Source: Desulfovibrio mangrovi (GTDB taxonomy: Bacteria > Desulfobacterota > Desulfovibrionia > Desulfovibrionales > Desulfovibrionaceae). Taken from it: a stretch of 64,000 nt of DNA. The notes under the pieces were generated by a model. It had not been told where the DNA came from. It made no database searches and was given only the letters and a program-made list of their open reading frames with translations. This document shows positions 2,979 through 6,855 of this stretch, piece by piece; position 1 is the first letter of the stretch; each line of letters starts with the position of its first letter. The DNA lies in assembly GCF_026230175.1 (NCBI RefSeq), contig NZ_CP104208.1, positions 930,001-994,000 on the forward strand. Direction: 5' to 3'. Both the position numbers and the translations under genes were made by a program.

Positions 2979-3824
2979 TTAGGATAGGGTGAGGCCAAGG
3001 GCCTCAAGATACATTTCGCCGGAATACACATTCAGCGCTTTGCCTTTAAGGTAGACGCAGCCGTCTTCAATGGAAATGCCGAGAATCTCGCCGCCTGAGC
3101 TGCGTACGTTCACGGATTCCTCGGTCAGGCCGAGCGCGCTGGTGACGACAACGCCCGCTGCGGCACCTGTGCCGCATGCGTAGGTTTCGTCTTCCACCCC
3201 GCGCTCATAGGTGCGCAGATGAATGTTCTTTTTGTCCAGCACGGTCACAAAGTTCGCATTGGTTCCCGCAGGGGCGAACGCCGCGTGGTAACGCACGTGC
3301 GCTCCCAGCGTTTTCACGTCCAGTCCGGCTGCGTTGTCGTGAATGTATACGGCATGGGGCACGCCGGTGTTCACGAAGTGGATGGTGCCTTCCATGCCGG
3401 GCATGTCGATGGGCTTGTTGAGCTCCAGCCCCTTGGGAGGGGTAAGCTGGACCTTGACCTCGCAGTTATCGACATCCACTTCGGCGCGGATGGGGCCCGC
3501 ATCGGAGCCGAAGGTGTGAATGGGGCCGGCGAATCCCAGCTTTACGGCCAGAAGACCGGCACAGCGGGATGCGTTGCCGCACATTTCTGCGCGTGAACCA
3601 TCGGCGTTGTAGAAATGCCAACGGTAATCGACAGAAGCTTCAGGGGCCTCTTCAAGAAAGACGAGGCCGTCGGCTCCAACTCCAAAGGCACGGCGGCAGA
3701 CCTTTTTCGCCCAATCCGCCATCGCTGACACGGGCAGCTTAAGCTCTCTGTTGTCAATGAACACGAAGTCGTTGCCGCAGCCCTGCATTTTATGGATGGG
3801 GACTGCTTTCATGTTCCTGTTCAC
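2979..3824 (-). CDS. dapF: Diaminopimelate epimerase
   Basis: It interconverts LL- and meso-diaminopimelate, the last step before lysine and the peptidoglycan precursor. The cofactor-independent two-cysteine mechanism is visible as Cys82 in EMCGNASRC and Cys217 in [10 protein letters not shown]. The 281-residue length is typical. The start is taken as the GTG at 3824 because AAGGAG lies eight bases upstream. An ATG four codons inside (3812) has a weaker site. The gene lies upstream of dapA on the same strand. Confidence 0.96.
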
Positions 3825-3875
3825 CGATTAACTCCTTGCAATGTATGCGATATGTGCCCGTTTTCGCGTTTATGA

Positions 3876-4766
3876 TCACGGGGCGGGCATGGACGCGATA
3901 ACCGGATCAGGGGCGACGGATTCATCAAGATTGACAACGGGGAAGCGGACGTTGTCATTCTCTCTCCATTCCCAGTCCGGAGTTCTCCGGGGCCATTCCA
4001 TAAGCTCGATAACGGCCAACGCCTTGCCTTTGGCGTAGCCCCGTGCCCACAGGATGGTACCTTTCGAATCCATGTTGCCCCGCATTCCTCCACCTGAACC
4101 GCTGCCGAGCAGAACATCGAAATGTCCTGAAGCAGCGGTAAGAAATTCTCGTTCCGACGGTGTGCCCCAAGGGCTTACCCCTATGATGAGGTCACACGTT
4201 TCGCGAAGAGAATCCGCAATGCGGATCAGTTCATTCTTATCCGTTTCGGATTCGTCCAGTTCTGCCGGAAGCAGGATGACTCCGATGCGTTTGTTGTCGA
4301 TCACACTCTGATGCACAACCGGTGTTTGGTCAACAAGGCGGAAGCCCGATGGCACTTTGCCTGTATGCCCTAAAAACCAATTGTGCGCAGTGGTTCCCAT
4401 CCACCCTACGTCAACCTGCATTCTTTCAAAGGCATCAATAAGATAGGGGGCTGAGGATGCGGGCAGTTCTTTGCCCTTGGCATCCGTGAATTCACCACTG
4501 CCGCCGATGACAAGGGCTGGTCCCAGCGTCCTGTATGATGTAATTTTTCCGGCCCGCCGGGCCAGTCCTCCGAGGGTTTTTCCTCCTCAGGTGGGACAGG
4601 GAAACATTTCACCATAGCCGTTGGCAAAAAACACAATGCGCAGAACGGGAAGGTTCTGCGCGTCGTGTGCTTCTGCCGCCTTTCCCGTGAGCAGTGCGAG
4701 CACACTCAACAGGGCGGCCAGGATGGCTATGCGGCCAGCGCCGGTAAGGCGCCTTGGGCTACTCAT
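3876..4766 (-). CDS. UshA-like metallophosphatase-type protein, candidate selenoprotein (in-frame UGA at codon 60)
   Basis: Reading from the ATG at 4766, which overlaps the end of the HU-like gene by 8 bases, one frame runs 296 codons to the stop at 3876 with a single internal UGA (4587-4589). Residues 13-29 form a signal peptide or anchor. The frame then reads NGYGEMFPCPT-UGA-GGKTLGGLARRA, so decoding UGA as selenocysteine gives a CPTU redox-like motif (Cys57, Sec60). The same frame is clearly protein-like on both sides. The remainder, including GVILLPAELDE and FDVLLGSGSGGGMRG, resembles periplasmic UshA/5'-nucleotidase-like proteins, but the usual DxH metal motif is absent. I recall a family called UshA-like (seleno)protein; I could not check it. 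A GC-rich hairpin lies at bSECIS distance. The alternative is a nonsense-disrupted pseudogene. Confidence 0.78.
4549..4565 (-). promoter_or_regulatory. Candidate bacterial SECIS hairpin
   Basis: On the minus strand, a 7-bp stem (CUGGCCC with GGGCCGG, one G-U pair) closes a GGC loop at 4556-4558, 28 bases after the UGA. Bacterial SECIS elements usually have an apical loop about 16-37 bases after the UGA with a G near the loop start. Only the pairing was read; no folding energy was computed. Confidence 0.45.
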
Positions 4767-5034
4767 TGAGAAATTCTTTGAGTTCCTTGCCGGCCCTGAA
4801 GAAGGGGAGCTGTTTAGGTTTCACCTTCACTACTTCGCCGGTTTTGGGGTTGCGTCCGGTGTATCCGCCGTAATCCTTGAGTTTGAAGCTGCCGAAGCCG
4901 CGAATTTCAACGCGGTCTCCATTGGCAAGGGCGGACTTCATGCTGTCCACGAAGATGTTGACCACGGTGGTCGCCTCTTCGATGGAGATGTTGTTTTCAT
5001 CGGACAGGGTCTTGATGAGTTCGCTTTTGTTCAT
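4759..5034 (-). CDS. HU/IHF-family DNA-binding protein
   Basis: This is a 91-residue nucleoid protein that bends DNA as a dimer. The family signature GFGSFKLKDYGGYTGRNPKTGE covers the start of the beta-arm, and the C-terminus VKPKQLPFFRAGKELKEFLN is typical. The ATG at 5034 is chosen because GGAG lies six bases upstream; a GTG directly before it is the alternative. The arm sequence GRNPKTGE fits both HU and IHF-beta, so I do not assign a symbol. The stop overlaps the start of the UshA-like gene by 8 bases, suggesting translational coupling. Confidence 0.93.
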   Translation of the reverse strand: MNKSELIKTLSDENNISIEEATTVVNIFVDSMKSALANGDRVEIRGFGSFKLKDYGGYTGRNPKTGEVVKVKPKQLPFFRAGKELKEFLNE

Positions 5035-5167
5035 CACCTACTCCGGGCAAATAGGGCATGAGGACATGCGCTGTGGTTAGAGGTCAAGAAGATTGCAGCT
5101 AACACAAATTGGGCATGTGGAGTATGTAATAAATCATTCTGATATTCAAGCGGTTATTAGAAAAAAC

Positions 5168-5977
5168 CTACCCCTCGATCAAAAAAGGTCCGCTCGCGAT
5201 TTGGTCGCGCATGGAAACGCGCAGTCTCTGCAACTTGACGGCAAGAGCAAACAGGTCCTGCGCTGCGGGAGAAGTGGGGGCCATTTTCAGCAGGGGCTTC
5301 TGGCGTCTTACAGATTCCGTCACCATCTTGTCGCTACGGATACCTCCCAGAAGGGTGGGCGTAAAACCGAGGAATTTATCACAGGCGGCGGCAAGGCGCT
5401 TGAAGGTGATCTCCTCTTCCCGCTTGTCTTCGACCTGGTTCACGATCACGTAGAAGTCCTTCACGCCGTGCTGGGTGGAGAGCACCTTCATGAGGGCATA
5501 GCTGTCCGTCAGCGAGGTCGGTTCAGGTGTGACGATGACAAGGCGTACATGGGTCATGGCACCGAAAGCGAGTACCGTCGGATTAATGCCTGCGCCAATG
5601 TCCATGAAGAGATAGTCATAGTCGGCGAACAGGGGGGCGAGCTTGCGGAACAGCATGGCGCGCAGGTCTGAATCCATTTCCACCAGTTCCGGCACGCCGG
5701 AGGCGGCAGGCAGGAAGTCGAAGCCGCCATTCTCGATATGTATGGCGATTTCTCTGGGGTTCATGTCGGAGTCCAGCAAGTTCTGCATGTTGTATTCGGG
5801 GGCGATGCCCAGAAGCACGTCCAGATTTGCCAGGCCGAGGTCACAGTCCATGAGCAGCAAAGGGAAGCCGCCGCGGAACATGCAGTATCCGAGGTTGAGG
5901 GCGATGTTTGATTTACCCACGCCGCCTTTGCCGCTGAGTACGGAAACGCTGAGAGTTCTGTTAATGCGCATGTTCAT
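5168..5977 (-). CDS. MinD/ParA-family ATPase, FlhG-like
   Basis: A 269-residue P-loop ATPase with the deviant Walker A SGKGGVGKSN (residues 15-24), the MDCDLGLANLDVLLG switch segment and the FMDIGAGINP motif. These belong to the MinD/FlhG (YlxH) group, which controls flagellar number or cell-pole placement. It lacks a clear N-terminal DQA(x)xLR activation motif and sits away from flagellar genes in this window, so FlhG is only the nearest label. It ends in QIASGPFLIEG rather than an obvious amphipathic membrane-targeting helix. It starts 8 bases after the diguanylate cyclase stop, so the two are probably co-transcribed. Confidence 0.85.
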   Translation of the reverse strand: MNMRINRTLSVSVLSGKGGVGKSNIALNLGYCMFRGGFPLLLMDCDLGLANLDVLLGIAPEYNMQNLLDSDMNPREIAIHIENGGFDFLPAASGVPELVEMDSDLRAMLFRKLAPLFADYDYLFMDIGAGINPTVLAFGAMTHVRLVIVTPEPTSLTDSYALMKVLSTQHGVKDFYVIVNQVEDKREEEITFKRLAAACDKFLGFTPTLLGGIRSDKMVTESVRRQKPLLKMAPTSPAAQDLFALAVKLQRLRVSMRDQIASGPFLIEG

Positions 5978-5985
5978 ATGGAGTT

Positions 5986-6855
5986 CTATTCAGTCCCGGA
6001 AAACAGGAACTGTTTCTCGTTGGAGTGTACCATGGTGGATCGATCGTATTCGAAGTCCGGCTGCTGGCGGGCAACATGTACGCAGTTCTTGCCGCTGGTC
6101 TTCGCTTCATAAAGGGCCTTGTCGGCCAGCTCCATCAGCATGGCAGGCGTAGTGGTGCCCCGTCCGCTCATGCAGGAAACGCCGGCGGAGAAGGTACAGG
6201 AGAAGGGGGCGTGGGGCTCGCAGCCGAAGAGCTGCTCGCTGAAACGCAGCAAGACACGTTCAACCATCGACTTCGCCTTGAGGGCGGAGGCACCGGGAAG
6301 CAGCAGGGCGAATTCCTCTCCGCCGAGCCGCGCCGCAACATCGTAGACCCGTTTGGTCTCAGACAGTACTTCGGCCAGGCCGCAGAGCACTTCGTCTCCG
6401 CAAGGATGACCATAGGTGTCGTTCACGTTTTTGAAGTTGTCTATGTCGATGCAGGCAAGGCTCACCGTGCCGTTGCTCCGGTCAACACGTTCAGCTTCGA
6501 TCTGAAGCTTGCGGTTGAATGCCCGTCGGTTTTCAAGGCCCGTCAGCGGATCATGTTCCGACTGGTGCGCAAGGTCTTCCAACGCCTGAAGCAGATGGCT
6601 CAGGTTCAGATGGGAAGACTCGTCCAGCGACAGGGCAAACCATTCCTGCAGGCCGTGCTTCTGGGCTACCTGTTTCCACTGCTCAATGGTTATGCCGTTG
6701 AACATGCGTGTGACGGCAATGAGGCCTGAGGTCTGTCCGGACGTGCGTTCCTTGGCAAGTTGCAGCAAAATTTGGCGCAACGATTCCAGTTCGCCAGACA
6801 GGGGGCGCAGGTCTTCCGGAATATCCCTTCCGCCGTATGTCTTAGTTTTCTGCAT
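5986..6855 (-). CDS. GGDEF diguanylate cyclase
   Basis: A soluble 289-residue protein predicted to make cyclic di-GMP from two GTP. The N-terminal 95 residues are helical with no recognised sensor domain. The GGDEF domain starts at HDPLTGLENRRAF, has the active-site GGEEF at 178-182, and the inhibitory I-site RVYD (169-172) exactly five residues before it, so product inhibition is expected. The start overlaps the end of prfB by 14 bases and has no good ribosome site of its own, suggesting coupled translation. A PilZ-like effector lies about 4 kb away on the same strand. Target and signal are unknown. Confidence 0.93.
   Translation of the reverse strand: MQKTKTYGGRDIPEDLRPLSGELESLRQILLQLAKERTSGQTSGLIAVTRMFNGITIEQWKQVAQKHGLQEWFALSLDESSHLNLSHLLQALEDLAHQSEHDPLTGLENRRAFNRKLQIEAERVDRSNGTVSLACIDIDNFKNVNDTYGHPCGDEVLCGLAEVLSETKRVYDVAARLGGEEFALLLPGASALKAKSMVERVLLRFSEQLFGCEPHAPFSCTFSAGVSCMSGRGTTTPAMLMELADKALYEAKTSGKNCVHVARQQPDFEYDRSTMVHSNEKQFLFSGTE

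Follow-up and report, generated by a model that had tools for sequence, protein, structure and literature searches.

A UGA-containing gene of UshA-like (seleno)protein family 2 in Desulfovibrio mangrovi: a probable selenol-thiol redox protein on a predicted metallophosphatase fold without metal ligands

Introduction

UshA-like (seleno)protein family 2 is tabulated as a CxxU selenoprotein, and marked as GenBank annotated, in a 2026 review (PMC13188914); its NCBIfam model is NF049981 (UshA_like_Sel_2). A second model, NF041198 (UshA_like_PCGU), covers relatives in which the motif is CxU. In the full-text literature searched, UshA-like selenoproteins appear as entries in tables and, for the CxU family, in a single sentence of a discussion; neither a functional account of them nor any biochemistry of family 2 was found there. 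Full-text searches for work linking selenoprotein, Desulfovibrio and metallophosphatase, or selenocysteine, UshA and SoxB, likewise found none.

Here, we describe a member of this family in a stretch of 64,000 nucleotides of the Desulfovibrio mangrovi genome (contig NZ_CP104208.1), referred to below in its entirety as the window. A preceding sequence-only reading had proposed a selenoprotein at this locus and pointed to an UshA-like (seleno)protein family in deltaproteobacteria. That family does exist, as NF049981 and the corresponding table entry (PMC13188914) attest, and the novelty that the reading implied falls away: existing catalogues already contain the family with its CxxU motif and describe it as a selenoprotein family. 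The window gene is a further member of an already catalogued, little-studied family. In the following sections, we set out the evidence for selenocysteine at its in-frame UGA, the fate of the metal site in the predicted fold and the role that the protein may play.

The gene and its family membership

The gene lies on the minus strand at 3876..4766 and encodes 296 residues with a predicted selenocysteine (Sec) at residue 60. On translation, the sole internal stop of the frame running from 4766 to 3876 is the UGA of residue 60 (4587..4589, minus strand), the final stop being a second UGA at 3878-3876. The TGT codon of Cys57 (4596..4598, minus strand) precedes it, giving the motif C57-P-T-U60, followed by GGKTLGGLARRA; the Cys-x-x-Sec pair that had been proposed at residues 57 and 60 is present in the translation, and it has the form of the CxxU motif tabulated for NF049981 (PMC13188914). 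Residues 1-33 (4668..4766, minus strand; boundary ...KAAEA/HD) read as a likely signal peptide, and residues 9-38, in the same region, form a helix in the predicted model.

The HU-like DNA-binding protein gene on the same strand (4759..5037; named by sequence) ends at 4759, so that it shares an 8-base overlap, ATGAGTAG, with the start of the selenoprotein gene, the tight coupling noted at the outset. Downstream is a dapF-like gene for diaminopimelate epimerase (2979..3824, minus strand; named by sequence). The split expected of a conventional gene finder was also found: under the standard code, the only open reading frame of at least 60 aa listed in this frame is 3876-4421 (181 aa). The gene would be missed by an annotation that ends at the UGA.

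Against NF049981, the product scores 262.2 bits (cut-off 140), the match spanning profile positions 1-260 of 262; the corresponding match from the genome search, at C1:933888-934643, scores 253.7 bits. Its score against NF041198 is 32.5 bits, below the cut-off of 275 and outside membership of that family, for which no match over cut-off was found anywhere in the window genome. A Pfam scan of the protein returned a single match, under its cut-off, and a sequence search of the PDB returned none.

Selenocysteine and cysteine at codon 60

In 150 sampled genomes of the same order, 86 had an NF049981 match over cut-off, and the 92 regions fetched provided 99 family members for alignment. One search yielded 113 loci, 100 of them with a match of at least 25 bits and 13 dropped as chance. 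One of the 25 sub-cut-off matches listed by the NF049981 search was used (G081:C24, L135); another, L124 (33 bits), lay inside a fetched region and was left out by the 100-bit limit.

Codon 60 in the 99 aligned members is TGA in 86, TGC in 12, TGT in one and nothing else, and Cys occupies position 57 in 97 of them, with Leu and Ile in one each. The pattern is not a matter of chance, since 99 homologues align across the UGA and place either a Sec or a Cys codon there. The sequence-only reading had named an unrelated sense codon at this position as grounds for giving up its proposal; none occurs among the 99. Its view that the frame is protein-like on both sides of the UGA also stood, the alignment being accompanied by dN/dS values below 1 in five pairs, at 0.06-0.56 before the UGA (24-42 codons only) and 0.11-0.30 after it. 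The loci with Leu or Ile in place of Cys57, L089 and L095, keep the UGA.

On a quick tree of 98 members, four Cys/Sec changes are required, two of them imposed by well-supported branches, and because of these changes we regard Sec and Cys as interchanging here in the way they do in redox proteins. Seven loci (L066, L068, L069, L072, L076, L077 and L081) have one Cys and one Sec copy in tandem; the seven genomes all belong to one genus (g6). Two further alignments must be read with their selection in mind. A DNA pattern requiring Cys57 plus a Cys or Sec codon at position 60 was used to gather A2, and the motif that selected the 28 distant rows of A4 likewise called for one or the other residue at that position. 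The conservation of Cys57 and Sec60 in them is therefore not independent evidence; that 28/28 distant A4 rows have Sec or Cys there follows from the selection and proves nothing by itself. The counts given for these two residues are those from the 99 members above and the 40 phylum relatives below.

The SECIS-like hairpin and the selenocysteine machinery

A hairpin just 3′ of the UGA with a G in its loop is one mark of a bacterial selenoprotein gene, and folding of the window sequence gives one at 4549..4565 (minus strand), with a 7-bp stem and the loop GGC at 4558-4556. Across the family, the hairpin has up to nine pairs, lies 22 to 42 bases past the first base of the UGA and has GGC as its consensus loop. 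The pairing was scored on 83 distinct Sec genes, the same sequences from which the structure was derived, which favours the hairpin: the paired fraction of cells is 84.3%, compared with 79.4% in shuffled alignments (0/500 as high) and at most 49.7% when the hairpin is slid along the alignment. Both sides are changed in 36 cells, the shuffles giving 18.1 (0/500). Such two-sided changes occur in 4/9 pairs, a count reached by 69/500 shuffles, and RNAalifold on its own predicts only five pairs, for which the covariation term is small.

The full 6-bp core is found in 78/86 Sec genes and in 4/13 Cys genes; among the 8/86 Sec genes that are without it, L122 and L128 break most of the core. Codon choice gives a further sign. 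Arg70 and Arg71, whose codons lie inside the stem and loop, are encoded by CGG in 147/172 cases in Sec genes, as against 271/1126 among the other Arg codons of these genes (p about 4e-55, ignoring relatedness). In Cys genes, the corresponding count is 14/26, a bias weakly present against their own other Arg codons (p 0.024). An Rfam scan of 3000-6000 in the window found no known RNA.

The absence of the insertion machinery, a further ground on which the proposal might have been abandoned, was not what we saw. The window genome has selA (615.9 bits), selB (364.2 bits), selD (343.6 bits) and the tRNA-Sec gene selC (78.6 bits), each over its cut-off. Its selD (L252, C1:1381215-1382147, minus strand) contains an in-frame TGA, so SelD may be a selenoprotein too. 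The tRNA-Sec model matches all of 297 genomes at a loose threshold, the meaningful figure being the 266 that exceed its cut-off.

With the conserved UGA/Cys codon, the hairpin and the four sel genes, it is close to certain that this is a selenoprotein gene of NF049981, and the UGA at 4589-4587 is very probably read as selenocysteine.

Predicted fold and loss of the metal site

An AlphaFold2 model built from 64 alignment rows has a pLDDT of 93.8 and a pTM of 0.87. Its best structural match is SoxB (2wdc; Z 24.5, rmsd 3.0 over 240 residues), tied with the best 5′-nucleotidases (3ivd_A, Z 23.9; 2z1a, Z 23.8) at a Z difference of less than 1, and Foldseek ranks 5′-nucleotidases first. The 50 structural matches listed have Z scores of 19.0-24.5 over 225-244 residues. 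A link to this fold at the level of sequence comes from L265, a PCGU protein of the phylum, which aligns with the 5′-nucleotidase 2z1a at E 2.9e-23, its Cys-Sec loop falling between the Asp of motif I and the GG-x-AR segment.

For the dinuclear metal site, we used the UshA ligands of motifs I-V. With the ligand columns positioned by sequence alignment through relatives, the window protein keeps 0/8 of them, and the 28 distant relatives in A4 keep between 0 and 4 of 8. In A4, N49 and Y51 stand in place of the Asp and His of motif I (N49-G50-Y51, where metallophosphatases have their metal-binding DxH; codons at 4614..4622, minus strand), E92 stands at the place of the motif II Asp, and motifs III-V hold no ligand. 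The protein had been described from the start as metallophosphatase-like in fold and without DxH, and the structural matches and the replaced residues agree. Tested as a dinuclear metallophosphatase, the window protein has the fold in its predicted model and lacks the metal ligands of motifs I-V. By computation, then, the model shows with confidence a SoxB/5′-nucleotidase fold whose metal-ligand positions are predicted to be lost.

Other positions are strongly kept despite this loss: Cys57, Sec60, Arg70, Arg71 and Glu92, with several Gly, Trp and Arg residues. The counts in the 53 rows of alignment A1 are R70 52, R71 53, E92 49, P167 53, S198 51, W200 48, E205 52, G223 53, W240 51, R242 52 and W267 49.

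Gene neighbourhood and distribution

The usual neighbourhood comprises a MinD-like gene upstream (79 loci; 89 with enough flank), HU within 400 nt upstream (65/92 loci; 90 with at least 400 nt of upstream flank), dapF downstream within 700 nt (38/92 loci; 88 with enough flank) and dapA downstream (71 loci; 88 with enough flank). It contains no redox partner. We rejected the derivation of a function from this setting, because the MinD-like, HU, dapF and dapA genes are housekeeping genes and their arrangement looks like old synteny at the level of the order.

The gene is dispensable, since it is missing from six of nine other genomes of the genus (L303-L308). In these, HU and dapF are still together, with 570-925 bases between them and no detectable remnant of the gene; the three other genomes keep it, one copy being cut by a contig end. 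More widely, a sample of 297 phylum genomes yielded 4 with a match over cut-off and 118 more with weaker relatives, most of which, among the matches listed, contain one TGA. It would seem that NF049981 and NF041198 each name one part of a single larger set. Searches of a phage collection with the window protein (at 1e-5) and of a plasmid collection with the L102 copy gave no match; three viral contigs match the DNA pattern.

Some members have settings of their own. A Cys-only branch (L120, L123 and L127) stands beside pilin-like ORFs, as judged by eye, with T2SSE-like and AAA matches. For the distant Sec members L256, L257, L263 and L224, a nearby gene encodes an iron-sulfur protein that is CCG-domain-like and related to LdhH/GlpC, and in L257, holA lies upstream of the distant Sec member.

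CxU sisters, the CcmF subgroup and c-type cytochromes

The 40 weaker phylum relatives that were fetched divide into 19 CxxU, 13 CxU, 5 without Sec and 3 with Sec and no partner Cys (L270, L288 and L289, which have no Cys at position 57). At least three CxxCH motifs are present in 11/13 CxU, 2/5 without Sec, 0/19 CxxU and 0/3 with Sec and no partner Cys. These motifs, three or four in number, are C-terminal in the CxU proteins L265, L266, L279-L284, L287, L291 and L292 and in the CGC members L275 and L290. Five proteins chosen for their CxxCH motifs, four CxU and one CGC (L265, L190, L280, L290 and L292), were scanned, and all five match PF13435 (Cytochrome_C554).

In a CxxU subgroup, the gene order is CcmF/NrfE-like heme lyase, TPR, selenoprotein and heavy-metal P-type ATPase. 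CcmF-like and TPR genes adjoin the selenoprotein gene in five loci from four distinct genomes, namely L093/L196 (apparently one genome), L102, L197 and L198, and partly in L233. The CcmF and TPR assignments were made by Pfam on L093 and L102, and the CcmF proteins of L196, L197 and L198 have 64-68% identity to that of L102. An M23 peptidase ends the cluster in L093, L196 and L102. Transposase- or integrase-like ORFs were seen by eye near L093 and L102; the CcmF-linked Sec paralogue may have spread by transfer, of which there is at most a hint.

Two small stand-alone proteins of the window genome, both with four CxxCH motifs, match the cytochrome portion of NF041198. Among the genomes of the order compared, 77 have both the family and such a c554-like cytochrome, 12 the family only, 27 the cytochrome only and 34 neither, at thresholds of E <=0.001 for the family (3/89 genomes below its cut-off) and E <=1e-12 for the cytochrome. 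The stand-alone cytochromes co-occur only loosely with the family, in a count that includes shared descent.

Proposed function and competing explanations

Interchange of Sec and Cys, and the CxxU and CxU spacings, are typical of redox sites. We consider it likely that the window protein, a true NF049981 selenoprotein, is a periplasmic selenol-thiol oxidoreductase built on a metal-free metallophosphatase scaffold. On this account, the protein would be exported to the periplasm, where Cys57 and Sec60, to judge from the CxxU motif and the Sec/Cys interchange, would form a selenenylsulfide/selenol pair and, where the metal pocket used to be, carry out redox chemistry of the thiol-disulfide or a similar type. 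More speculatively, c-type cytochrome metabolism might provide the protein with its electrons or with its clients. This last link is drawn because the CxU sisters are fused to a multiheme domain and a CxxU subgroup is placed between CcmF and the P-type ATPase; it rests on those sisters and that one subgroup, none of the 19 CxxU proteins of the phylum sample having a heme motif. Nor is the Cys-Sec pair universal, as 2/99 close and 3/40 distant members keep Sec without the partner Cys.

Those few members, which need no Cys-Sec pair, would also suit a protein that has remained a hydrolytic or metal-binding enzyme, its selenol serving either as the nucleophile or as a metal ligand of a new, soft kind. 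Hydrolases have this fold; Glu92, kept in 49/53 rows where motif II has its Asp, would fit metal binding, as would the heavy-metal P-type ATPase encoded downstream in the CcmF subgroup. We nevertheless judge a retained hydrolytic or metal-binding role unlikely: none of the eight classical ligand columns survives in the window protein, the multiheme fusion of the CxU sisters points to electron transfer, and the motif spacing and Sec/Cys exchange are those typical of redox sites.

The top structural Z, that of SoxB, invites another explanation, in which a SoxB-like sulfur enzyme uses the selenol to attack or carry a persulfide or S-sulfonate on a protein thiol. Many of the hosts have the names of sulfate reducers (among the 80 of 113 records listed), and the SoxB model TIGR04486 gives ten distant relatives scores of 39-106 bits. 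Their scores are nonetheless far short of its cut-off of 550, with E allowed up to 1 the window protein does not match the model, SoxB is tied with the best 5′-nucleotidase in structure, and no SoxYZ-like carrier is found among the 25 of 139 neighbour families listed, so that a sulfur enzyme of this type seems quite improbable.

That the UGA is a real stop, leaving a short peptide and a truncated remnant, can be set aside almost entirely, since the split of the frame under the standard code and the absence of the gene from six of nine congeners are outweighed by UGA at the same codon in 86 of 99 homologues with Cys in the other 13, by dN/dS below 1 on both sides and by the hairpin and sel genes; a pseudogene, a frameshift or a sequencing error is ruled out by the 99 homologues.

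Returning to the selenol-thiol oxidoreductase, its extension to the whole family is more tentative, and we put it forward as a possibility with somewhat less than an even chance of being right. UshA-like selenoproteins would be one large phylum-wide family, derived from a metallophosphatase by loss of its metals and rebuilding of the pocket around the Cys-Sec site, and would be periplasmic selenol oxidoreductases of c-type cytochrome metabolism that either receive electrons from a multiheme cytochrome, fused or separate, or serve heme-lyase (CcmF) systems. The multiheme fusion in the CxU sisters and the CcmF cluster in the CxxU subgroup point to c-type cytochromes, and a hydrolase fold has seemingly been turned into a selenium redox protein through the loss of its metals.

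Comparison with known systems

Set beside NF049981, the window gene looks like an ordinary member, and we found nothing that sets it apart. With the NF041198 proteins, it has in common the fold region and a Cys/Sec loop before GGLAR; the motif there is CxU and here CxxU, and the C-terminal CxxCH motifs borne by 11/13 CxU relatives of that type have no counterpart in the window protein, which is without any CxxCH. With the UshA/5′-nucleotidase/SoxB fold (COG0737-like), it shares the predicted structure and the GG-x-AR segment after motif I. It differs in keeping 0/8 metal-ligand columns and in having 296 residues where most of the matched chains have about 500, only the first part of which aligns, so that the window protein is without their C-terminal domain. 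In the loop after motif I, it has instead a predicted selenocysteine.
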